Assembly (NCBI GenBank): GCA_002050165.1 | Contig: MWSW01000014.1 | Coordinates: 124,001-188,000 of the forward strand | DNA from: Candidatus Tepidiaquacellales bacterium OLB4/UTCHB1 | GTDB lineage: Bacteria > Bacteroidota > Ignavibacteria > Tepidaquicellales > Tepidaquicellaceae | DNA: 64,000 nucleotides | Direction of reading: 5' to 3' | Part shown: positions 4,982 to 23,776 of the stretch, piece by piece | Layout of the letters: every line of letters begins with the position of its first letter | Numbering within the stretch: position 1 is the first letter of the stretch | Notes under the pieces: generated by a model | What the model was told of the DNA's origin: nothing | What the model saw: the letters and a program-made list of their open reading frames with translations, nothing else | The model's database searches: none | Program-made: the position numbers and the translations under genes

Positions 4982-5362
4982 ATGAAGCTATTCATCGTTG
5001 AAGATTCCGAGTTAGTAAGAGAACGGCTGATACGGTTAATTAACCGGAATGATAACGTTAAAATCGTTGGTTACAGTGATAATATTGTTGAATCAATTGA
5101 GATGATGAAAAAGCTCAAACCGGATTTTATTATTCTTGATATTATTTTGGACGGTAAAAATAGTCTCGATTTTCTTGATAAAATTTATGAGGCTTTGCCT
5201 CAGGCGGAAATTGTGGTTTACACGAACTACCCGTATTCGTTGATAAAAAAGTACAGTTCAAATAAAGGAATTAAGCATTTCTTCGATAAATCTAAAGATC
5301 TTGAGAGTTTGCTTGAGCTGATTAAAAATACTGCAATGAAATATTCTGAAAAAACCCTCTGA
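4982..5362 (+). CDS. Receiver-only response regulator (CheY-like)
   Basis: A 126-residue stand-alone receiver domain. It has the acidic pocket (IVEDSELVRERL), the phosphoacceptor Asp53 in FIILDIILDGKNS, the Thr of VVYTNYP and the conserved Lys of FFDKSKDLE. There is no output domain, so it must act by protein contact or phosphotransfer. It is preceded by a structured 250-bp leader and followed 23 bp later by a PAS histidine kinase, its probable partner. Confidence 0.88.
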   Translation: MKLFIVEDSELVRERLIRLINRNDNVKIVGYSDNIVESIEMMKKLKPDFIILDIILDGKNSLDFLDKIYEALPQAEIVVYTNYPYSLIKKYSSNKGIKHFFDKSKDLESLLELIKNTAMKYSEKTL

Positions 5363-5385
5363 TAACTATCAACAATCTGAAATCC

Positions 5386-6519
5386 ATGCATACCACAAAA
5401 TATTCCGAAACTGAAAAAGGGGATATGTATGAATTTGCAATACGTGGCGCAAAATTAGGGTTGTGGGATTGGGACTTGAGCACCGGAACTATAAGGCATA
5501 ATAAGCGATGGGCTGAAATTCTGGGTTTTGAAAATGAAACGAAAGAGCACGATCTGGAGAGTTGGGAATCTCTTGTTCACCCGGATGATAAAGAGGAAGT
5601 CCTCAATAAACTCAACTTTCACCTTAATGGTGGCTCTGAACTCTATAGCGCTGAGTATCGCATAAAAACAAAAAACGGAAATTGGATCTGGATTCTTGAT
5701 ACGGGTATGGTAGTGGAGGAAGATGCTCAAGGGAAACCATTGAGGATGTCAGGTATCCATTGCGATATTACTTTACAAAAGGAAGCCGAAAAGAATTTTC
5801 AGGAAGCCAGAAAACTATCTGAAGAAATTGACCGCGTCAAAACGATTACATTAAGAAATATTTCACACGAATTCAAAACACCGTTGATTGGTATTCTCGG
5901 ATTTTCTGATATATTACTAGAAGAAGTCAAGAACCCTGAACAACTTGAAATGATAAAAATGATTAATGCTTCCGCGTTGGAGCTGAACCTGAAATTAGAT
6001 CAGGTGATTAATTTGCTTAAAATAGAAAACAGGGAATATAAACCGAAACCTCAGAAGATTAACCTGCTAAACATTGTCGAGAAAAAGGTAAAATACTTTA
6101 GGCCGAAAAGCCTTGAAAAAAATCTTTTCATTGACTTAATTGTTATCAATCACAATCAAATTATAAACTCGGATGAGCAACTTATTAGAATTCTCTTAAA
6201 AAGTATAATAGATAATTCAATAAAGTTCACTGATTCGGGTGGGATAAAAATTACGCTTGATAGAGTTGAAGAAAACGGAAAATCGTTCTCTGTAATAGAA
6301 ATAAAAGATACCGGGATCGGTATCCCGCAAAAAAATCTGGATCATATTTTCGGGGAGTTCAGACAAGCGGATGAAAGGCTTAATAAACGATACAACGGTA
6401 CAGGATTAGGTCTCTCTATTGCCCACAAAATAATTTGCCTCCTTGATGGGAAAATTGAGATATATTCTGATGTTGGTTTAGGGACAAAATTCATCGTTAA
6501 ATTGCCCTCTATAATTTAG
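5386..6519 (+). CDS. Cytosolic PAS-domain histidine kinase
   Basis: A 377-residue soluble kinase with no transmembrane helix. A PAS domain with its PAC motif spans about residues 10-130 (LGLWDWDLSTGTIRHN... NWIWILDTG). HisKA follows with His161 in NISHEFKTPLIGILGFSDIL, then an HATPase domain (about 260-375) with SIIDNSIKFTDSG, IKDTGIGIP and GTGLGLSIAHKI. The start chosen is the first ATG; a second Met at residue 14 would also keep the whole PAS domain. Paired with the receiver-only gene just upstream; no DNA-binding output is visible. Confidence 0.9.
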   Translation: MHTTKYSETEKGDMYEFAIRGAKLGLWDWDLSTGTIRHNKRWAEILGFENETKEHDLESWESLVHPDDKEEVLNKLNFHLNGGSELYSAEYRIKTKNGNWIWILDTGMVVEEDAQGKPLRMSGIHCDITLQKEAEKNFQEARKLSEEIDRVKTITLRNISHEFKTPLIGILGFSDILLEEVKNPEQLEMIKMINASALELNLKLDQVINLLKIENREYKPKPQKINLLNIVEKKVKYFRPKSLEKNLFIDLIVINHNQIINSDEQLIRILLKSIIDNSIKFTDSGGIKITLDRVEENGKSFSVIEIKDTGIGIPQKNLDHIFGEFRQADERLNKRYNGTGLGLSIAHKIICLLDGKIEIYSDVGLGTKFIVKLPSII

Positions 6520-12211: not shown

Positions 12212-13552
12212 TCAGGAACTCATAGATTTCAATAACACATTGGTAGTTTTCCGGAATACAGGTTCGAGCACTTTTCCCTTCAAATATTTTCGAATATCTT
12301 TTTCTTCCACAGCTTTTTTCAGAATTGCCAGCGTCTCATCGTAAGCTTTGAGAGTATAGTTGATGTCTTCATCTGAATGCGAGAAACACATATTATGGAA
12401 ACCTCCCCATAGAATTCCGCGCTTAATCATCTCCTGTTGCATTAGAGTTTTCATTTCCAGTTGATTGCAACCGGATTTTACTGAATCGAAGGTAATTATT
12501 GATCTGCAGTTGTAACCCGAACAAGCAGTGTAATCAATCCCGTGTTTTAAGACTAAGCTGTTGTATCCTTTCTGAATCAAAGCACCTTTCTCATCGAGAT
12601 ATCCTGTTACATTCTTTTCCACAATTTCATTAATGGTTGCAATTGCGGCTGCAAGTGATAATGCTTCACCACCGAATGTTGTGAAAAAGAAAACGTCTTT
12701 TTCGATAAGCGACATCACATCCTTTCTACCGGTTATAACTGAAACCGGCATTCCGTTTGCTATGGCCTTTGAAAAACACGCAAGATCGGCATTCACTCCG
12801 AAGAAATCCTGTGCTCCACCCGGGGCAATTCTGAAGCCAGTCCACATTTCATCGAATATGAGAAGAATATTATTTTGGGTGCAAATTTCTCTGACTTTTT
12901 TCAAAAAGTCGTCTTTGGGTTTCTCGAAAATAAATGGTTCGAGAATTACACATGCAATATCATCGTCAATTGAATTTATCAGCGAATCAATATCATTATA
13001 ATTAAAAGTGAAGCTCAGGTCTTTCACAGCGTCAGGAATTCCGTTATTCCTATCGGTAACCGATATATACCAATCGTGCCATCCATGATACCCGCAGCAA
13101 AGTACTTTACTTCGACCGGTAAATGCCCTTGCAAGCCTCACTGCCGCAGAAGTTACGTCGCATCCGGTTTTAGAAATCCGCACCGATTCTGCATTTGGAA
13201 CGACTTTCCTGATGAGCTCCGAAAATTCAACTTCAAGTGGATGTGTTAGCGAAAAAGTTATACCTTTTGCGAGTTGCTTTTTAATGGCATTGTCAACACT
13301 GTCATAAGCGTAACCAAGTGATATGGGGCCAATTCCCATATTGTAATCAATAAACTCATTTCCATCAACATCCCAAACATGCGATCCTTTACCGTAATCG
13401 AGATAAACCGGCGCAACTCCGAAAGACCATTGCGTCGGACCTTTTGCGAGAGTTTGAGTAGAAGCAGGAATCAGCCCTTCGGACCTTTTGAATATTTCAA
13501 GTGAATTCTTTATTTCAGGATAATCTTTATTGAACTGGATTTTGTTTGCCAT
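12212..13552 (-). CDS. Class III PLP aminotransferase, glutamate-1-semialdehyde-aminomutase-like
   Basis: A 446-residue PLP enzyme of the HemL-like class III group. Key features are YHGWHDWY in the PLP phosphate region, IFDEMWTGFR with the PLP-ring Asp, and the Schiff-base lysine Lys262 in CFSKAIANGMPVSV. It is unlikely to be the haem-pathway HemL, because it sits in a sugar operon: its ATG overlaps the stop of the transketolase C-half (TAATG, sharing position 13552). Homologues of this type occur in surface-polysaccharide loci next to SpsF-type nucleotidyltransferases, where they are thought to aminate a sugar ketone or aldehyde. That role is inferred from context. Confidence 0.78.
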   Translation of the reverse strand: MANKIQFNKDYPEIKNSLEIFKRSEGLIPASTQTLAKGPTQWSFGVAPVYLDYGKGSHVWDVDGNEFIDYNMGIGPISLGYAYDSVDNAIKKQLAKGITFSLTHPLEVEFSELIRKVVPNAESVRISKTGCDVTSAAVRLARAFTGRSKVLCCGYHGWHDWYISVTDRNNGIPDAVKDLSFTFNYNDIDSLINSIDDDIACVILEPFIFEKPKDDFLKKVREICTQNNILLIFDEMWTGFRIAPGGAQDFFGVNADLACFSKAIANGMPVSVITGRKDVMSLIEKDVFFFTTFGGEALSLAAAIATINEIVEKNVTGYLDEKGALIQKGYNSLVLKHGIDYTACSGYNCRSIITFDSVKSGCNQLEMKTLMQQEMIKRGILWGGFHNMCFSHSDEDINYTLKAYDETLAILKKAVEEKDIRKYLKGKVLEPVFRKTTNVLLKSMSS

Positions 13553-14457
13553 TAATTTCCGTTTAGTTTGTTTACTATTTTCTTGGTTAATTTCTCTGCG
13601 GTATAACCCTCGTATTCAAGCACATCAGGTAGTGTTGCAGGTTTAAACCATTTTTCATCAAATGAGATCGGAAGTACATTTGCACTTTGACCATGCTCCA
13701 ACAAACACTCAGCTAAAACCGAGAACAAACCACCTTTTTTAAAGTGATCCTCAACTGTAACAATCAGCTTTGAATTTGAAGTAACCTCAAGTATAGTTTG
13801 AAAATCAACGGGTTTGAGGGTTCGGAGGTTTACCAAGCCTGCCGAGACGCCGCGTTCCGTAAATAGATTCAACGATTTATAACATTCGCTGAAACAAAAT
13901 CCATAGGTTAAAATTGTAACGTCCTTCCCGGTAGAAATAATTTCAGCTTTTCCGATTTCAAAGTTTGTCGAATGTTCTACGACAGGTTTCATGTTATTAT
14001 ACCTGATGTAAAAAGGCTGTGGGTGTTCCAAGACTGTTTTAAATCCAATCAACATATCCGCTTCATCAGCGGGACACCAGACGTTTACATTTGGAATACC
14101 TCTCATGATTGATACATCTTCAAGAGATTGGTGAGTGGGACCGTTACCATCGGATAAAAAACCGGGAAATGCACCGACAAGTTTAACCGGTAAACCGGGT
14201 ATTCCGATATCGGTACGAATAAATTCAAATGCCCTCATCGTAAGGAAAGAGGCGAGTGCATGTACGACAGGAATTCTCCCTCTAAGCGCCATCCCCGCTG
14301 ATGCACCTACAAGCGTCATCTCTGTGATTCCGGTATCAATAAATTTTCTGCCAATTTGCGAAGGTAGATTTCTGATAGCTGCCCGATTTTCAGCTGTCAT
14401 TACAACAACCCGTTCATCTTCATCAACAATTTGCCTAAGCAACTCTTCGTATGTCAT
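13552..14457 (-). CDS. Transketolase C-terminal subunit
   Basis: A 301-residue half-transketolase holding the pyrimidine-binding and C-terminal domains. It contains GITEMTLVGASAGMALRG with the catalytic Glu that activates thiamine diphosphate, GPTHQSLEDVSIMRGIPN, and the late ILTYGFCFSECYKSL typical of the C-domain. The partner N-half is encoded at 18881-19738 in the same operon but 4.4 kb away, with two kinase genes in between. Its ATG overlaps the stop of the upstream kinase (ATGA, 14454-14457). Such split transketolases in glycan loci probably act on a specialised sugar rather than in the pentose phosphate pathway. Confidence 0.86.
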   Translation of the reverse strand: MTYEELLRQIVDEDERVVVMTAENRAAIRNLPSQIGRKFIDTGITEMTLVGASAGMALRGRIPVVHALASFLTMRAFEFIRTDIGIPGLPVKLVGAFPGFLSDGNGPTHQSLEDVSIMRGIPNVNVWCPADEADMLIGFKTVLEHPQPFYIRYNNMKPVVEHSTNFEIGKAEIISTGKDVTILTYGFCFSECYKSLNLFTERGVSAGLVNLRTLKPVDFQTILEVTSNSKLIVTVEDHFKKGGLFSVLAECLLEHGQSANVLPISFDEKWFKPATLPDVLEYEGYTAEKLTKKIVNKLNGN

Positions 14458-16793
14458 TTTTGGGCGTTACCTTTCATTACCGATTTAAATTCTACAATAA
14501 ATTCCGCACCTTTACCGGGTTTACTTTTGATTTTAACTTTTGCATTTAAAAGTGTAATGAGCTTCTTAACGATCGAAAGTCCGAGACCTGTTGAAGATTC
14601 GCCCCCTGTTGGTTTTGCCGAAAGATGAGAATATCTTTGGAAAACTTTTTGCTTGTCTTCGACTGTTAAACCTGGTCCCTCGTCTTTTACTGATAATAGC
14701 AACTTGCTATCCTTATGAATCAATGTAACGTAAATATTGCCACCTCTGGGTGAAAACTTAATCGCGTTTGTAATAAGATTATCGAAGATTTGGAGTACCA
14801 GACTTTTATCATAGTATAATATGATTTCATTGGACGGATAATTCTTGTGTATCGTAATCTCTTTCCTTTCAGCATCTGCCTTTACTTTTGATATTCCAAA
14901 ATCTATAAGGTTAACAATATTGAATTCTTCCGGTACCATATTAAACTCGTTTTGCTCTATAGCTTCAAGATTCAGGAAATTTTTCACTATGCTTAGCATC
15001 GAATTTGCGGAGTTAATAATATCGTGCATGAATTCATCTACCTCATCGCGCGTTATCGATTCATCCTCAATAATATAGTTTGAAAGTCCGATTATGGCGC
15101 TTAATGGATTCCTCAGGTCGTGCGATGCAATTGCAAGAAACTCAGATTTTTGTTTCTCCCGCTCAAGCAATTGAAAATGAAGTTCACGCAATTCGTCAAG
15201 TGCTTTTTGGTGTTCAACATATTTCAACCTGTAAATTTCTTTCTCCTTTTCTGCGTTTTCAAGATCGTAAATGATTTTTATTTGTTTCAGGTTCTTATCC
15301 CTTTTTTCGTTAAATAATTCTTTATTTATATCGCAATATTTCTGTGAATACTCGAATGCCTTTTTGTAATTCTTTTGCTTTTGAAATAGAGTTCTAAGCA
15401 TATCATAGCATTCCACCAGCATTAATTTTTCATGATCCTTTATAATCAAATGTATAATTTTCAACAGCTCTTTTTCAACAATAGCATATTGACGTTTCTG
15501 CATCTGAATACTTAGCTGAAGCAACCGGTTCTCAAGTCCGAACATATGCGATCCAAGTTCAGAGCAAATTTCCTGAGCTTTTTCCAAGAGTTCAATTGCT
15601 TTTTCAAGGTTGCCCCTGTATCTGAAAATCTTCGCATAGAGGTTGTATGAATATGCCTCTAATCTTTTATTCCCGGATTCGGTTGAATTCTTCAAAGCTT
15701 GTTCAGCATATCGTTCGCAATGATTGAAATTGCCGGTCAACGTACAGAGGTAACCAAGATTAATCAGGCATTCAATAAACCCATTCATATCCTTGATTTC
15801 CTTTTTCATTTTCAAAGCTTTTTTGAAATAAATCTCAGCGTTCCGATACTCATTTCTTTGTTGATAAAGTGTACCAATGTTCATGTAACCGGTTGAAAGC
15901 CCTACGGCATCACCAAATTTCTCCTTCAGGACGGTTGCCTTCAAAAGCAAATCTAAGCTCTTTTCAAAATCACCGAGGTTTTTGTATGCAAGACCTAGGT
16001 TGCCGTAAACAGAGGAAAGTGAATAATCATCCTTTGCTTCTCTACTGAACTTCATTGCTTTGTTCAGGTTAAAAATAGCCTTCGGTAACTCACCGAGCTC
16101 CCAGTAAATATATCCAAGGTTACCGTAAACAACCTGAATTGTATTGAAATTTTTAAGTTCGGAAAAAATCTTCTTTGCAGATTCAAGGTTACTTATAGAT
16201 TTCTGCACCTGACCTGATCTGAACTGTGTATTTGCAAGATTGATATAAATAATCGCTCTGGTTTTTTGTGACTCCGCAGAATTATCACTTACATATTCAA
16301 GAGCTTTGTTAAATAACGAAACACCGTATTTGTATTTTCCCCTTTTTGATTCATTTATACCTAAACCCATATAACATCTCGCAATACCGGTATTATTTTT
16401 TAACTCTTTATAAACTTCAAGACTTTGCATAAGATATTCATGGCACATTTTAAAACCACTACTGAAGCTGTGTTGGGTAGCTTTCTCATACAATGCTTCA
16501 GCTCTTAATTCGGGATCGTTAAGTTTTACTGATAACGCCAACGCTTCGTCAGTGAGCGCATTTGCAGTCTCTCGCTTTGAAAGTCTGCGGTTAACATCAA
16601 TGAGTTTGATAATTACCTTTAAGAGTAATTTCTCGAGTCTTTGTTTGACTGATTCTTTTTTTGTCAATCTGATTTTTTCCCGTAGCTCATTTTCAAGAGG
16701 CGATAGAGAATCTAACAGAGATTTTCTATCTGCTGTGTCATCTGATAACAATGAGTCAATTTTGTCAGATATTTTTTTTTCAAATTTATTCAA
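14454..16793 (-). CDS. Cytosolic TPR-repeat histidine kinase (second of two paralogues)
   Basis: A 779-residue kinase with no signal peptide or transmembrane segment. Roughly residues 55-480 are tandem tetratricopeptide repeats (for example ARCYMGLGINESKRGKYKYG and YGNLGYIYWELGELPKAIFN), then a coiled coil (about 495-550). HisKA follows with His558 in AIASHDLRNPLSAIIG, and an HATPase domain with NAIKFSPRGG, VKDEGPGL and STGLGLSIVKKL. All catalytic boxes look intact. It is 8 bp behind its paralogue and overlaps the transketolase C-half. TPR arrays usually bind a peptide or protein, so it may sense a cytosolic partner. No response regulator lies in the operon. Confidence 0.88.
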   Translation of the reverse strand: MNKFEKKISDKIDSLLSDDTADRKSLLDSLSPLENELREKIRLTKKESVKQRLEKLLLKVIIKLIDVNRRLSKRETANALTDEALALSVKLNDPELRAEALYEKATQHSFSSGFKMCHEYLMQSLEVYKELKNNTGIARCYMGLGINESKRGKYKYGVSLFNKALEYVSDNSAESQKTRAIIYINLANTQFRSGQVQKSISNLESAKKIFSELKNFNTIQVVYGNLGYIYWELGELPKAIFNLNKAMKFSREAKDDYSLSSVYGNLGLAYKNLGDFEKSLDLLLKATVLKEKFGDAVGLSTGYMNIGTLYQQRNEYRNAEIYFKKALKMKKEIKDMNGFIECLINLGYLCTLTGNFNHCERYAEQALKNSTESGNKRLEAYSYNLYAKIFRYRGNLEKAIELLEKAQEICSELGSHMFGLENRLLQLSIQMQKRQYAIVEKELLKIIHLIIKDHEKLMLVECYDMLRTLFQKQKNYKKAFEYSQKYCDINKELFNEKRDKNLKQIKIIYDLENAEKEKEIYRLKYVEHQKALDELRELHFQLLEREKQKSEFLAIASHDLRNPLSAIIGLSNYIIEDESITRDEVDEFMHDIINSANSMLSIVKNFLNLEAIEQNEFNMVPEEFNIVNLIDFGISKVKADAERKEITIHKNYPSNEIILYYDKSLVLQIFDNLITNAIKFSPRGGNIYVTLIHKDSKLLLSVKDEGPGLTVEDKQKVFQRYSHLSAKPTGGESSTGLGLSIVKKLITLLNAKVKIKSKPGKGAEFIVEFKSVMKGNAQK

Positions 16794-16801
16794 ACTGAAA
16801 A

Positions 16802-18871
16802 CTAAACTTTTTTTATTTCAAAACGAAAAATTGAACCTTTAGGTGAAGTGGAATGAAGCGATACTTCTGCGCCGATCAAATCGGAAAGTTTCTTTATAAT
16901 GGAAAGTCCCAGCCCGGTTGACTCTTCACCACCTGTTGGTTTATTGAATTTAACCGAATATTTCCGGAATAAATTTTCTTCCGACATTGACGGAAATCCC
17001 GGACCACGATCTTTAATATAAATCCCAACCGAACTGTTCGAGTCAATCACTGCAATTTCTATCTTCGTTTCCGGCGGTGAAAATTTCAAAGCATTGGATA
17101 TAATATTGCTCAATATTTGCCTGATAATGTTTTTATCATTAAAAATCCTGACAGCATTTTCAGAAGTTTTTATTTCGATTGCCTGCGTTTTTGAACTAAG
17201 AAGTCTTTCAAATGATTTAATTATCTCTTTCAGCAAAGTTAACAAATCAAATTCGACTTTTACAATATCAAGATTTCCTTCTTCAATCCTGTTTATATCA
17301 AGCAGTTTGTTAATTAATTGAAGCATGTTATCTGCGCTTTCATTGATGTCTTCTAAGATTTCAAGAAACTCCGTCGGATGCTCCGATTTCGGACAAATTG
17401 AAATCAAATAATTACAATTTCCAATTATTGCGCCAAGGGGATTTCTAAGGTCATGAGCGGCTATTCCCAAAAATTCATTTTTGTCCTCATTTAATATTTC
17501 GAGTTTTTTGTTCATTCGAACAAGCTCCTCATTTTTGACCGTGAGAATATCTGCCCTCTCTTTCGCCTTTCTGAACTCGAAATCAGCCTGCATTATGGCA
17601 GTTTTATTTTGATACTCTTCACTTTTCATCGTCTCGCGTAAATCCATAAGCTCATTCTTAAATTTAAGCGCCTGTTCGAAATCGCGAACGCCTTCGAAAA
17701 TCCCGCTGAGATTGTGACACGCGTTTGCAATGAGCCTTTTATCGTCAAGTTTGACAGCACAATCATAGGAAAGTTTGGCATACCTCAACGATTCTTTAAA
17801 ATTGGATTTATTTAATTCGGATAATCCGTCATAGATTTTTATCTCAGTAAAAACATTATTGATTGATTTGCATACTTCGAGCGCTTTATTAAAATTTTCT
17901 TTTGCCTTATCCGTGTACTTCAGGCGGGTTTCTATAATCGCAACGTCACTATATGCGTTTGCAATTTCATACTTCGAGTGAAATTGTTTTGCAGTCTCAA
18001 GTCCCTTAAGCGCGTATTCGTACGCTTTATTGTATTCGCCGGAATTAATATAAAAAACGGCAAAGTTAGAAAACGTTTGAGCCAGTCCGCTTTTATTGTT
18101 AATCTTTTGCTGTTCTGCAAGACTCTTCGAATAATATTCAAGCGTCTTCTCTGAATCTCCAATATCAGTATAATAAATTCCGAGGTTCAGATAGATAACT
18201 GACTTTGCAAAACTATCGTTGAAATCATCAGCAATTTTTAATGCTTCGTGGTAATACGAGAGGGCTTTTTCCATCAAACCGGAAGAGAGAAAAATTATAC
18301 CGGCGTTATTGTAAGGTTTATAATGCTCGAGACACCTGTCATATTTTTTTGAAGCGTCAATTGCCTTGAGAAAGTAAACGAGCGCATCGGAATAATTGCT
18401 TGACTGCCAGTAAAGTCTGCCGAGATTATTGTAAGCAATAAATTCCGTTCTTGAATTACTCGTTTTTTTAGCAATCTTCAGTGTTTCATTTAAAAGTTCA
18501 ATTGCTTTATCAAATTCAGATTTTTGGAAGTAGATTTCTGAAAGCCCTACATTCAACTCTGCAATTTCATCCAAATAGTTTTCCTTTTCAGGAATCGAGG
18601 CGAGAATATTTTGTATCTCATGAATATTGATTTTTACGTCTTGAACTCTCGTAATTCTATATGCTGCAAGTCGTTTACTTTGAACCTGTATATATAATTT
18701 ATTAAACTGTCCGTCAGAAAATTTTTTATCTTTAACAATTCCAGATATCTTTTCTGAAAGTTCATTCGCTTGTTCAAATAGTTTCAACGAATCATTTGCC
18801 AGTAGTTCTTCAGAAAGTTCAACCAGCTCCTGTGCTTTAATGGCAATTTCGGATACGTTCTTTTCACTCAT
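16802..18871 (-). CDS. Cytosolic TPR-repeat histidine kinase (first of two paralogues)
   Basis: A 689-residue kinase built like its downstream neighbour: TPR repeats (about residues 80-430, e.g. AYNNLGRLYWQSSNYSDALV and NAGIIFLSSGLMEKALSYYH), a coiled coil, HisKA with His473 in GIAAHDLRNPLGAIIG, and HATPase with NALKFSPPET, IKDRGPGFP and STGLGLSIIKKL. There are no membrane segments. It starts 9 bp after the transketolase N-half stop and ends 8 bp before its paralogue. Its TPR array is shorter by several repeats. Duplication within the operon is the simplest origin. Confidence 0.88.
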   Translation of the reverse strand: MSEKNVSEIAIKAQELVELSEELLANDSLKLFEQANELSEKISGIVKDKKFSDGQFNKLYIQVQSKRLAAYRITRVQDVKINIHEIQNILASIPEKENYLDEIAELNVGLSEIYFQKSEFDKAIELLNETLKIAKKTSNSRTEFIAYNNLGRLYWQSSNYSDALVYFLKAIDASKKYDRCLEHYKPYNNAGIIFLSSGLMEKALSYYHEALKIADDFNDSFAKSVIYLNLGIYYTDIGDSEKTLEYYSKSLAEQQKINNKSGLAQTFSNFAVFYINSGEYNKAYEYALKGLETAKQFHSKYEIANAYSDVAIIETRLKYTDKAKENFNKALEVCKSINNVFTEIKIYDGLSELNKSNFKESLRYAKLSYDCAVKLDDKRLIANACHNLSGIFEGVRDFEQALKFKNELMDLRETMKSEEYQNKTAIMQADFEFRKAKERADILTVKNEELVRMNKKLEILNEDKNEFLGIAAHDLRNPLGAIIGNCNYLISICPKSEHPTEFLEILEDINESADNMLQLINKLLDINRIEEGNLDIVKVEFDLLTLLKEIIKSFERLLSSKTQAIEIKTSENAVRIFNDKNIIRQILSNIISNALKFSPPETKIEIAVIDSNSSVGIYIKDRGPGFPSMSEENLFRKYSVKFNKPTGGEESTGLGLSIIKKLSDLIGAEVSLHSTSPKGSIFRFEIKKV

Positions 18872-18880
18872 GAATTGAAA

Positions 18881-19738
18881 TCACCTTGCAATTATAGTTT
18901 CTGATGTAAGTTCTGCACCTGCTTCACCCTTTAATTCCTTGTGCAACATCTCAATTTCCTCCGGTGTAAAATTAACAAACCATCTGTCAGCTCTGGCTTC
19001 AATGCTCGGGAGGCCTTTACCGCGAATAGTGTCAGCGACAATCAGAGCCGGTTTTCGGAGCCCGGATTTTAAGCTGGAAAAAGTTGAATGCATATCTTCA
19101 AAATCGTGTCCGTTACACGTTAATGCGAACCACCCGAAAGCCTTGAATTTATCTTCTATAGACTCCAACGGAATGAGATCCTCAGTCTGAACATTAGCCT
19201 GAAACTTGTTCCTATCAACAACAACAATAAGATTATCCAGTTCCTTTGCGGACGCAACGAGCGCCGCCTCCCAAATTGATCCTTCATTTAATTCGCCGTC
19301 ACCTAATACTACAAGCACCTTGTTGCTTTGTTCGCTTAGTTTACAATCCATCGCGATTCCGATTGCAACGCTAAGCAAATGCCCGAGAGAACCGGAATGA
19401 AACTCAACCCCGGGTATGTTTGTATTCGGATGCCAGTAAATATTGTCATTTGTTTTCAGATGATACTTTAACCGCTCAGCGGAAATTATTCCGATTTCCG
19501 CTAACGTACCGTACAACGCCGGAACATCATGGCCTTTTGACAGGAGAAAATAATCCCGTTTCGGATCTGCGAGATTGTCAGGTGTAACATTTAAAAATTT
19601 TTTATACAGATACACTATCAGATCTGCGCATGAAAGAGAAGCACCGATAAAACAACCACCTCCGGTTGACATATTGATAATGTGTTGCCTTACCTTAAAC
19701 GCGGTTGAAGTCAATATTTCAATGTCCTGCTTATTCAC
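18881..19738 (-). CDS. Transketolase N-terminal subunit
   Basis: A 285-residue half-transketolase with the thiamine-diphosphate (PP) domain. It shows YFLLSKGHDVPALYGTL, the ThDP/Mg motif VVLGDGELNEGSIWEAALVA (GDG...N-like), VVVDRNKFQA, and a late TIRGKGLPSIE. It starts at GTG (19738). The complementary C-half is at 13552-14457. Together they make a full ThDP enzyme transferring two-carbon ketol units. A 125-bp gap separates it from the upstream SpsF-like gene, so it may have its own promoter and head the downstream five-gene operon. Confidence 0.87.
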   Translation of the reverse strand: MNKQDIEILTSTAFKVRQHIINMSTGGGCFIGASLSCADLIVYLYKKFLNVTPDNLADPKRDYFLLSKGHDVPALYGTLAEIGIISAERLKYHLKTNDNIYWHPNTNIPGVEFHSGSLGHLLSVAIGIAMDCKLSEQSNKVLVVLGDGELNEGSIWEAALVASAKELDNLIVVVDRNKFQANVQTEDLIPLESIEDKFKAFGWFALTCNGHDFEDMHSTFSSLKSGLRKPALIVADTIRGKGLPSIEARADRWFVNFTPEEIEMLHKELKGEAGAELTSETIIAR

Positions 19739-19863
19739 TAAAGAAAATTTTATTCACTTTCTTATATTTATTTTTCAGAAATCTCAACTAAGTCAACATA
19801 AAATGTATAATCAAAAAACATGCTAAGCAAGTCAAAGATAATAGTTGTAATCTAATAATATTT

Positions 19864-20667
19864 TTATAAGAGTTTAGTTTGTGACGGAGATATTGTCTTA
19901 AGTTTATCGAGATTTTCTCTGTACCAATTGACACCCGCATACTTTCGGTTAATTTTCATTAAATTTGGATTTTTTTCAAGGATTGACAAAATATCTGAAA
20001 GCGTAAACTCCGGGTTTACATCAAACAGTTCGTCATAAACGGCTTTTATAAATAAATAGTCTTCCAAGTAATCAATTGTAAATCTATGCGACATTGAATA
20101 ATCAAGCCCGGTTTCCCAAACTACATTTCCGATTCTGAACCTATCAGGACGTTCCCAGATAAACGGAGTAGTGTGTTCCCGTTCAAATGATTCTGCAGCT
20201 TCAACCCATGCTGTTTCCAATATTTTCAACGGCATAATTTCAACATCATTGCCGTCCGGATATGACGGTGGATGCAGATTGCTGACAAAATCGAAATCGT
20301 CAATATTGTTCAGATAAAAATTTATTACCCGGTCAATAATCGCAGGATCAATCAGCGGACAATCAGAAGGGATTTTAACAATGTGTGTTGCTGAATATTT
20401 TACTGCAGCCTTGTAATGTCTGTCAAGCAGATCATTTTCATCACCCCTGAAACACGGGATATTAAATTCATTGCAGAGCTCTTCAATTTTATCATCTGAA
20501 ATTCTATTGGTGGTTGCGATTACAATTGAATCGCAGGTTTTTGCAGATGCAACCCGCTGGTACATTCTGATAAGCAGGGGCATTCCGGCTAACGGTAAAA
20601 ATACTTTATCGGGTAGTCGGGATGACCCCGTACGGGCTTGAATAATAGCTAAAATATTACGTTTCAC
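19864..20667 (-). CDS. SpsF/NeuA-type cytidylyltransferase-like sugar nucleotidyltransferase
   Basis: A 267-residue GT-A-fold nucleotidyltransferase. The N-terminal signature AIIQARTGSSRLPDKVFLPL is that of the SpsF/CMP-KDO synthetase-like family, followed by VIATTNRISDDKIEELC and IPSDCPLIDPAIID (metal-binding Asp). It would activate an acidic or amino sugar with a nucleotide, probably CTP, for surface glycan assembly. It starts at GTG 5 bp after the upstream gene. SpsF-like genes are commonly next to HemL-like aminotransferases in such loci, which fits the rest of this operon. The sugar is unknown. Confidence 0.82.
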   Translation of the reverse strand: MKRNILAIIQARTGSSRLPDKVFLPLAGMPLLIRMYQRVASAKTCDSIVIATTNRISDDKIEELCNEFNIPCFRGDENDLLDRHYKAAVKYSATHIVKIPSDCPLIDPAIIDRVINFYLNNIDDFDFVSNLHPPSYPDGNDVEIMPLKILETAWVEAAESFEREHTTPFIWERPDRFRIGNVVWETGLDYSMSHRFTIDYLEDYLFIKAVYDELFDVNPEFTLSDILSILEKNPNLMKINRKYAGVNWYRENLDKLKTISPSQTKLL

Positions 20668-20672
20668 TTTTA

Positions 20673-21689
20673 CTACCCTACGGTTGAGTAACTTACTTTT
20701 TTCTTAATGTGCGGGACATAATCACCTTGACCTATCACTTCACCGAAAAGTTTTTTGATTTCCTGCGCAATATTACCGGCCGAAGTTCCACCGTTCTGAA
20801 GCGGTGTCAATTTTTTAAGTTCATTGATGTCAAATTCTGAATACACTTCCTTACCGAGCACAATACCTACATAAACGAGGGTTGAAAACCTTGTAATCAG
20901 TAGATCGCAGTTGGCAACCATTTCGTACGCATTCCCGTCCTGAAAAATGAGCGAACCCGGTGCATATTTTTCAATTTCCCTTTTCGCCCGCCGGTATTTC
21001 TCATTTGGATGTAGTTTAAAAATTAATTTCTTATTGCCTGCAAGCTTTACAGCATTGAGGATAAATTTTTTCCGGTTTTCAAACTTATACGTTTCCCTAG
21101 AATCTGAAGATGCTACAAGTACATAGTTCCTATAAGGGAAATTGTTATCATAATACTTGATACAATCATCAAAATTCGGAATTCCGGTAACTTTAATCTT
21201 TCCGGGTTTAACACCTTTCCGGATGAAATGATCTCTGTAACCGTAAGAAGCCACACAAAAAATTTCATATTCATCCGACAATCCCGTCATTGAAGTTGAT
21301 GCAAAATATCTCGGGAGATTGAGCGCTTTTACTAACTTGTATGCAACATTCTCCGGATCGGTCATTCCTTCCTGAACAAGCACGATACGTTTGTCTTTAA
21401 TGTTTTTTTGCACAATCAGATCGCTGCAGGATACAACAAGGTCGTAATCATTATTCTCCCCTCTGTAATCGAACTTCAATTGATTTTCCCTGAGATATCT
21501 TTCTGTATTCTCCCTGAACTTTCCACCAAGAATTGAGAAATCAAGTAACCCGAGCTTTGCAACCAGATTTTCTTTTCCATCGGCATAATAAGGAGTGAAG
21601 TAAGCATCGTAATCGGGTAACTCAAGGGAAATTTTATGCAACATTGAAGTTTGGTTCAGAGAACCACAGATGTATAAAATTTTCTTCAT
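20673..21689 (-). CDS. Probable GT-B glycosyltransferase or capsule-type transferase
   Basis: A 338-residue soluble protein, starting at the ATG at 21689 (a TTG at 21698 is the alternative). The C-half reads FKLHPNEKYRRAKREIEKYA, then a hydrophobic strand and ANCDLLITRFSTLVYVGIVLGK, which resembles the nucleotide-sugar-binding half of GT-B proteins and UDP-GlcNAc 2-epimerase/CDP-glycerophosphotransferases. The family cannot be fixed by eye. It is the first gene of the sugar operon, 5 bp before the SpsF-like gene, and divergent from dnaG across a 251-bp intergenic region that must hold both promoters. Confidence 0.5.
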   Translation of the reverse strand: MKKILYICGSLNQTSMLHKISLELPDYDAYFTPYYADGKENLVAKLGLLDFSILGGKFRENTERYLRENQLKFDYRGENNDYDLVVSCSDLIVQKNIKDKRIVLVQEGMTDPENVAYKLVKALNLPRYFASTSMTGLSDEYEIFCVASYGYRDHFIRKGVKPGKIKVTGIPNFDDCIKYYDNNFPYRNYVLVASSDSRETYKFENRKKFILNAVKLAGNKKLIFKLHPNEKYRRAKREIEKYAPGSLIFQDGNAYEMVANCDLLITRFSTLVYVGIVLGKEVYSEFDINELKKLTPLQNGGTSAGNIAQEIKKLFGEVIGQGDYVPHIKKKVSYSTVG

Positions 21690-21940
21690 CTTAATCAAAT
21701 ATGTTTAATTTTGTTTCTAAATTAAATTGCTTAATAATATCCGAATCGGCACCTCATTCGGTTATAAGAATTGTTCTTTAGCAATATAAACACAGAACTA
21801 ATGTTTTTTACTTAGTGAGGTAATACCGGTTTCCTTAGAAAGGGAAAAAACTTAATAAAAATGATTGTTCAGATGGTTTTCACAGTCAGCACAGTAATTC
21901 AAACATCGTTTATGGTTTATAGAATTATTATTTTCAGTTG

Positions 21941-23776
21941 ATGAGGATAAGCGAGGAAAAAATAAACGAAATTGCTCAGGCAAATGATATCGTTGAGGTG
22001 ATTTCATCTTACACAAGAGTGAAGAACAGCGGTAAATCATATCTTGCGATTTGCCCGTTCCATCAGGATAAAAATCCATCCATGAGCATTTCGCAGGAAA
22101 AGCGGGTATATCACTGTTTCTCATGTGGAGCAAGCGGTAACCTGTTTAAGTTTGTTCAGAATATCGAAAAGATTACGTTCATGGACGCGGTTGAAAAACT
22201 TGCTCAAAGGGCGGGAATCGCGCTTGACCTTCAATCTTATTCTCCTGACCTGACAAATGAAATTACCCTCTTGCTTGAGATTAACAAAATCGCAGCAAGA
22301 TACTTTCATGATACATTGTTTGACCTGAGCGGAGCAGAAAAGGATTTTATCTTTTCCTATCTACGGAAACGAAATTTAAAAGATTACACGATAAAAAAAT
22401 TCGGTTTAGGTTACGCAAAAAAGGACTGGAATTCCCTTCATGATTACTTCAGAGAGAATACGGAATTTTCTGATGACAATCTGGAGAAAGCCGGCTTAAT
22501 CGTCAAGAGCACAAAGGATAATAAGTATTATGATAGGTTCAGGGGAAGGCTAATGTTCCCGATATTTAACGAAAGTGGTAAAGTAGTTGCATTCGGGGGC
22601 AGGAAACTGTTTGAAGATGACAATACAGCAAAATATATCAATTCACCTGAGAGCAAAATTTACAATAAAAGTAAAATTCTTTACGGTTTGAATTTTGCAA
22701 AGGATTCAATCAGGTCAGAAAAAAGGGTTCTGCTTGTTGAAGGTTATATGGATCTTATTGCACTCGTGCAGGCTAAATTCACAAACTGTGTTTCGTCCAG
22801 CGGAACGTCGCTTACAGATGATCAGGTAAAAATCCTGTCGCGTTATACATCAAATGTTTCAATTTTATTTGATGGCGATTTTGCAGGTATAAAAGCCGCC
22901 AAACGTGGGATAGAGAAAATACTGCAAGGCGGCGCGGAGCTTAGAATTACGGTGTTCCCTGAAAACGAAGACCCAGATTCTTACATAGCAAATAAAGGTA
23001 TCAATGAGTTCGGACAACTTATAAATTCCGGCAGCGATTTCATCGAGTTTATTTCAAATCTTTTGGCGAAAGAAAATAAACTAAAATCCGTTGCAGATAA
23101 AACAAATTTCATTAGGGAGATAATTTATTTTATCTCGTTCATTCCGGATAAAATCAAACGATCCTTCTACATAAAAAAATTAGCTTCGGAATACGGACTC
23201 TACGAATCGCTCCTGCAGGATGAACTGAATATAGCGTTGAAAAAAAATACTGCAGTAAAATCATCTACAGAAATCAGGAAGGAACAACCATTCAACAATC
23301 TAAAAAAAAACAAACAATCAGTAATTTCACGCATTGAAACTGAACTGATTGAGCACTTTATTCACGGCGATAACGAGGTTATAGAATATCTTGAAAATAA
23401 CCTTGAGACTTCATTCATTCGGTCAGAACACGCATTGAAAATTATCCAATTGTTCCTCGATGAATATTTAAATGATGGGAAAATTGACGTTGCGAAAATA
23501 ATGAATTCAATCAAGGATGAGAAATTAATTGAGATTATTGCAGCAGCTTCAACGGAAAAATATAAAGTCAATGATGCCGGTATAAAGGATAGAAATGCTA
23601 TTCTCAACAGTGTGGCTTCAATAAAAATGAACTATTTGGAGTCGGTAAAGGGGTTGATTAAAACACTTCGTATTGAAAAACTTGAACGCGAATACAAAGA
23701 GAAAGCAAAAGATAGTTCTAAGCTCGATGAATGTGTTAAGCTAAAAAAAGAAATTTTCCAGCTTTCCAAAAATTGA
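21941..23776 (+). CDS. dnaG: DNA primase
   Basis: A 611-residue primase that makes RNA primers for replication. The N-terminal CHC2 zinc-binding domain begins at Cys38 (CPFHQDKNPSMS ... YHCFSCGASGN). The TOPRIM catalytic core follows with LLVEGYMDLIAL and VSILFDGDFAGIKAA. The C-terminal DnaB-interacting part is poorly conserved, as usual. The ATG at 21941 is preferred to an in-frame TTG just before it. The next gene starts within its stop codon (TTGA), so a small secreted protein is translationally coupled to it. Confidence 0.95.
   Translation: MRISEEKINEIAQANDIVEVISSYTRVKNSGKSYLAICPFHQDKNPSMSISQEKRVYHCFSCGASGNLFKFVQNIEKITFMDAVEKLAQRAGIALDLQSYSPDLTNEITLLLEINKIAARYFHDTLFDLSGAEKDFIFSYLRKRNLKDYTIKKFGLGYAKKDWNSLHDYFRENTEFSDDNLEKAGLIVKSTKDNKYYDRFRGRLMFPIFNESGKVVAFGGRKLFEDDNTAKYINSPESKIYNKSKILYGLNFAKDSIRSEKRVLLVEGYMDLIALVQAKFTNCVSSSGTSLTDDQVKILSRYTSNVSILFDGDFAGIKAAKRGIEKILQGGAELRITVFPENEDPDSYIANKGINEFGQLINSGSDFIEFISNLLAKENKLKSVADKTNFIREIIYFISFIPDKIKRSFYIKKLASEYGLYESLLQDELNIALKKNTAVKSSTEIRKEQPFNNLKKNKQSVISRIETELIEHFIHGDNEVIEYLENNLETSFIRSEHALKIIQLFLDEYLNDGKIDVAKIMNSIKDEKLIEIIAAASTEKYKVNDAGIKDRNAILNSVASIKMNYLESVKGLIKTLRIEKLEREYKEKAKDSSKLDECVKLKKEIFQLSKN

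Follow-up and report, generated by a model that had tools for sequence, protein, structure and literature searches.

The locus lies on contig MWSW01000014.1 of Candidatus Tepidiaquacellales bacterium OLB4/UTCHB1 (genome G000), in a stretch of 64,000 nucleotides that is referred to as the window. The following features were identified, with window coordinates:

20673..21698, minus strand: putative glycosyltransferase / CDP-glycerol-transferase-like protein, operon gene 1 (ORF list)
19864..20667, minus strand: SpsF/KdsB-like cytidylyltransferase (CTP_transf_3; Pfam, 100.7 bits)
19739..19863: AT-rich leader of 125 bp located 5' of TKN, possible promoter region (sequence reading)
18881..19738, minus strand: TKN, N-terminal (TPP pyrophosphate-binding) chain of a split transketolase, GTG start (Pfam, motif, structure match)
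16802..18871, minus strand: HK1, soluble TPR histidine kinase of 689 aa (Pfam, boxes, alignment)
14454..16793, minus strand: HK2, soluble TPR histidine kinase of 779 aa, TTG start (Pfam, boxes, model)
13552..14457, minus strand: TKC, pyrimidine-binding plus C-terminal chain of a split transketolase (Pfam, motif, structure match)
12212..13552, minus strand: AT, class III (HemL-like) aminotransferase, here the last gene of the operon (Pfam Aminotran_3, 163 bits)

An earlier note had described the minus-strand order of the five genes from TKN to AT, and its coordinates, gaps and overlaps proved exact when compared with the ORFs, the junction reading and the Pfam assignments. The TGA stop codon of TKN is followed by 9 bp, TGAtttcaattcATG, and the ATG start of HK1; the TAG stop codon of HK1 is followed by 8 bp, TAGttttcagtTTG, and the TTG start of HK2. 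HK2 and TKC overlap by ATGA, TKC and AT by TAATG. Upstream the operon extends to the cytidylyltransferase and the putative glycosyltransferase genes. The genes are tightly packed and probably translationally coupled, so that the tight coupling proposed in the note is supported by the junctions. A sigma-70 promoter scan of the TKN leader gave hits not above those of shuffled sequences, and this promoter type may not apply in the phylum. We ruled out a chance array of ORFs or one broken gene, and likewise a single transketolase gene carrying an insertion, as nearly all of the ~80 relatives encode the N- and C-terminal halves by separate genes.

Pfam finds Transketolase_N in TKN (108 bits) and Transket_pyr and Transketolase_C in TKC (93 and 78 bits), i.e. 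the PP domain resides on one chain and the Pyr and C-terminal domains on the other, the arrangement by which split-gene transketolases are recognised. The TPP-binding GDG...NK motif is kept in TKN and the catalytic-Glu motif GITE in TKC. The closest solved structures are those of the split transketolase from Carboxydothermus hydrogenoformans, 6yak for TKN and 6yaj/6yak for TKC. Judged from domains and motifs, TKN and TKC most likely form a putative alpha2beta2-type transketolase. The genome also encodes a single-chain transketolase (G000:C16, 455 bits), suggesting that the split enzyme is probably pathway-specific. A split transketolase has been reported to be active when assembled from its two chains alone, and the same work restricts such enzymes to archaea and a number of thermophilic bacteria (PMC7661550). 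This statement has to be seen against the Bacteroidota examined here, in which gene pairs for a split transketolase occur widely and most of which are unlikely to be thermophiles.

The same genes recur in relatives in the order putative glycosyltransferase, SpsF-like cytidylyltransferase, TKN, TKC and aminotransferase, with the aminotransferase adjoining TKC and often followed on its 3' side by an SDR (PF13561) and a NeuB-family synthase (PF03102). Orthologues of the glycosyltransferase-like protein, 54-68% identical, head these operons, and the SpsF-like cytidylyltransferase gene lies directly upstream of TKN there as well. The glycosyltransferase-like ORF has no Pfam match and matches the BFO_1060 glycosyltransferase NCBIfam model weakly, far below its cut-off. 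AT scores below every HemL equivalog cut-off of NCBIfam (TIGR00713, 246 versus 527 bits; PRK06209, 380 versus 486 bits); by family scores it is HemL-like and not HemL. In G000 the SDR and NeuB genes stand together on another contig (G000:C10), their products being 60% and 78% identical to proteins of G041. Divergent to this relocated pair lies a gene for a PorX-like protein combining a receiver and a PglZ domain (L225 11620-13212; G000:C10, ~30.6-32.2 kb).

A NeuB synthase and a CMP transferase thus occupy one locus in relatives, with the NeuB of G000 on its separate contig, and from the biochemistry of these families this combination suggests a CMP-activated 3-deoxy-ulosonic acid. The product of the operon is probably a CMP-activated, PEP-derived 3-deoxy-ulosonic (sialic-acid-like) surface sugar, for which transketolase, aminotransferase and SDR would make the acceptor of NeuB. 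The proposal of the earlier note that the split transketolase belongs to a surface-sugar operon is supported. Our literature search found no description of an operon combining split transketolase, aminotransferase, NeuB and cytidylyltransferase; the present analysis documents that it is widespread in Bacteroidota.

HK1 and HK2 both contain TPR_12, HisKA and HATPase_c (Pfam), and an alignment of 16 sequences shows their H, N, G1 and G2 boxes to be complete and invariant. A hydropathy search detected no transmembrane segment in either protein (maximum 19-residue value 1.1). Together with the Pfam domains and the intact boxes, this bears out the claim that the sensor kinases between the transketolase halves are soluble TPR kinases. 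The two share only 28% identity. The model of HK2 (pLDDT 81.9, pTM 0.58) shows a TPR solenoid of ~10 repeats and a helix of ~100 residues leading into DHp, followed by CA; Foldseek matched it to HK853 and to the LGN TPR domain. The best NCBIfam match of both kinases is the FimS family, NF053520, with scores of 160-185 against a cut-off of 600. No response regulator is present among the ORFs of the operon. Composition gave no signal of foreign origin, the GC content of the kinase genes being 0.353-0.354 versus 0.372 for the window and their GC3 resembling that of the neighbours, so that a recent foreign origin is unsupported.

Elsewhere in the order TPR kinases are frequent and often stand in tandem. 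In G000 at least one further TPR kinase is encoded divergently from a sigma-54-type response regulator, and tandem arrays of TPR-type kinases occur elsewhere in G030 and G041 (L222 6905-12718; L223 4056-10130), so that pairs of TPR kinases are nothing unusual in this order. The window also holds, outside the sugar operon, a receiver-only response regulator gene followed by a PAS histidine kinase gene (4982-6519).

The conservation of the TKN-TKC junction was examined in 294 genomes of the class, in which 80 close TKN homologues were found. TKC follows 2-87 bp downstream of TKN in 63 of these 80 loci. TPR kinase genes occupy the gap in three, with two in G000 and one each in G030 and G031, which represent another genus and where 15 and 16-18 bp separate the kinase gene from its neighbours. 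The gap of G033 and G034 measures 1.6-1.8 kb and contains a small ORF together with a gene on the opposite strand, which in G033 is MazF/PemK-like (L052 7753-8678; L060 7399-8216). At the other 12 loci a TKC homologue either lies on a different contig or strand, or none passed the cut-off applied. A sample of 395 genomes of the phylum gave 35 TKN-TKC pairs, 32 of them within 161 bp; larger gaps separate the other three, with a HicA gene and its probable partner in one, a gene for a 23S-IVP four-helix protein (23S_rRNA_IVP) in another and an aldo/keto reductase gene in the third. Other genes have repeatedly been inserted at the junction of the split-enzyme genes, and the presence of HicA, 23S-IVP, aldo/keto reductase and MazF-like genes in the same gap elsewhere identifies it as a permissive insertion site.

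The search for the same gene order in relatives thus recovered a one-kinase version in G030 and G031, so that G000 is not alone in having such an order, and, in most other relatives of the family, order, class and phylum, TKN directly followed by TKC. A conserved linkage of kinases and transketolase, which the reading in the earlier note calls for, is largely absent, and on present evidence kinase and transketolase are not a conserved functional unit. Since most relatives lack the kinases and unrelated genes occupy the same gap, the kinase arrangement looks like a local gene-order variant and not like a new enzyme-kinase machine. Nothing relevant to kinases between split-transketolase genes was found in the literature searched for this combination.

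These data also bear on the idea that the TPR domains attach to the chains of the split transketolase and scaffold or gate its assembly, the kinases being part of the complex. The position of the kinases between the two halves, the tight coupling, the capacity of TPR solenoids to bind proteins and the resemblance of the HK2 model to LGN TPR domains would fit such a role. The large majority of relatives, however, need no such partner, unrelated genes sit in the same slot, and the split transketolase with the nearest solved structure can be reconstituted from its two chains (PMC7661550). We consider this explanation highly improbable, and the scaffolded or stoichiometric production suggested earlier has found no support.

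Whether the kinases entered the slot once or twice depends on partly conflicting evidence. Among the genomes examined, dnaG is arranged head-to-head with the sugar operon only in G000 (window 20673-23776), G030 and G031, with one or more genes between dnaG and the operon in G030 and G031 and none in G000. This shared junction makes it probable that the whole block was passed on together, by inheritance or by transfer. When the other 43 genomes of the order are compared, HK1 and HK2 both match the G030 kinase best. The identity of the G030 and G031 kinases to HK1 and HK2 is 31-33%; as these kinases evolve rapidly (G030 and G031 share 65% identity in the kinase and 90% in TKN), this value is compatible with orthology. 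For the kinase pair G030/G031 dN/dS is ~0.09 (0.26/2.99, with dS saturated), suggesting that the kinase is maintained.

Marker proteins do not fit a simple common origin. RpoB, partial RpoC and the two adjoining ORFs of their locus reject a clade of G000 with G030 and G031 (AU p 0.00016), and with it G000 as their sister; these markers place G000 with G022, G041 and G042, whose operons lack kinases. For the operon genes the grouping is not rejected (p 0.40). Block inheritance consequently implies a transfer or no fewer than two losses, and otherwise two independent insertions have to be assumed. Chance insertion of common TPR kinases, separately in two lineages and without relation to the operon, would agree with the permissive junction, with the species markers and with the kinase tree, which does not join the kinases of G000, G030 and G031, without rejecting their union (p 0.42; long branches). 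The dnaG-operon arrangement common to these three genomes and absent from the others examined, and the best matches of HK1 and HK2 to the G030 kinase, speak against such insertions, which we regard as unlikely. The shared dnaG junction favours an older arrangement that was lost at least twice, or block transfer, over two insertions.

The kinases might instead be dedicated regulators of the sugar pathway that sense a pathway protein, a precursor or the state of the envelope and act via an unlinked response regulator on the operon or on SDR-NeuB. They are kept in the slot in two genera, and the G030/G031 kinase is under purifying selection. Signalling genes also accompany the operon elsewhere: an OmpR-type regulator and a HAMP kinase, typed by Pfam, lie directly upstream of it in G033 (L052 2326-4303), and genes matching these two in size are found upstream of the glycosyltransferase gene in G034, G029 and G028 (L060, L061, L062). 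In G038 and G036 a hybrid histidine kinase of 935 aa with a receiver is encoded 3' of TKN-TKC (L078 9701-12508; L082 8142-10949); in G038 the TKN-TKC pair concerned is a second, divergent one. The PorX-like response regulator divergent to SDR-NeuB in G000 would be in line with such a role. However, the slot lacks a kinase in most relatives, the kinases that flank related operons belong to other types and stand at different positions, the operon contains no cognate regulator, and these genomes encode many TPR kinases at other sites, often as tandem genes. Operon-specific regulation by the kinases is possible, and a dedicated function of this kind is a tentative alternative. It is a good deal more doubtful that, specifically, the kinases are dedicated sensors of the sugar-synthesis enzymes or intermediates, which would read the status of the pathway through a protein of it bound to their TPR region and relay it to an unlinked response regulator, e.g. 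the PorX-like protein, that tunes the surface sugar. To our knowledge, the ligands of TPR kinases are mostly unknown; if the kinases regulate the pathway, the locus would offer a simple system for the coupling of a TPR kinase to envelope sugar synthesis.

The explanation we prefer, at a probability of roughly 0.6, is a surface-sugar operon whose permissive TKN-TKC junction holds two cytosolic, cotranscribed, orphan TPR kinases that are neighbours of the transketolase and not components of it. It builds on the observed gene order, the intact motifs, the absence of a membrane segment, the recurrence of the slot in two other genomes and the unrelated inserts found in it. The two transketolase chains would assemble after translation into an alpha2beta2-type enzyme, and because they are separate, an insertion between their genes need not harm it. 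In this lineage the junction would have come to hold the two predicted cytosolic TPR histidine kinases, probably cotranscribed and translationally coupled with the sugar enzymes. HK1 and HK2 may well be intact and functional, passing their signal to response regulators whose genes lie elsewhere, presumably with no physical link to the transketolase. Against a role as mere neighbours stands that the kinase genes lie in the sense direction, are densely packed and have stayed in the slot while diverging to 31-33% identity, which is beyond what a random passenger needs.

Like FimS of Porphyromonas gingivalis (NF053520; PMC11053733), HK1 and HK2 combine a TPR sensor region with DHp and CA, and both have the TPRs and the HisKA/HATPase_c domains with intact H, N and G boxes of a FimS-type kinase. 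FimS carries periplasmic TPRs between two transmembrane helices and has FimR as partner regulator (PMC11053733), whereas HK1 and HK2 lack a transmembrane segment and a linked regulator and score below the NF053520 cut-off. With the split transketolase of C. hydrogenoformans (6yak, 6yaj; PMC7661550) TKN and TKC share the separate N-terminal (PP) and C-terminal (Pyr and TKC) chains and the absence of an inter-domain linker. Unlike that enzyme, they are encoded in a sugar operon, as a probably pathway-specific pair beside a separate full-length transketolase, and kinase genes lie between the two transketolase genes. NeuB-dependent loci for nonulosonic or ulosonic acids resemble the operon of relatives in linking a NeuB-family synthase to a cytidylyltransferase. 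The operon differs from Neu, Leg and Pse loci in its precursor genes, which are those for transketolase, HemL-like aminotransferase and SDR, and, in G000, from NeuB-type loci with a CMP transferase in that SDR-NeuB is unlinked.
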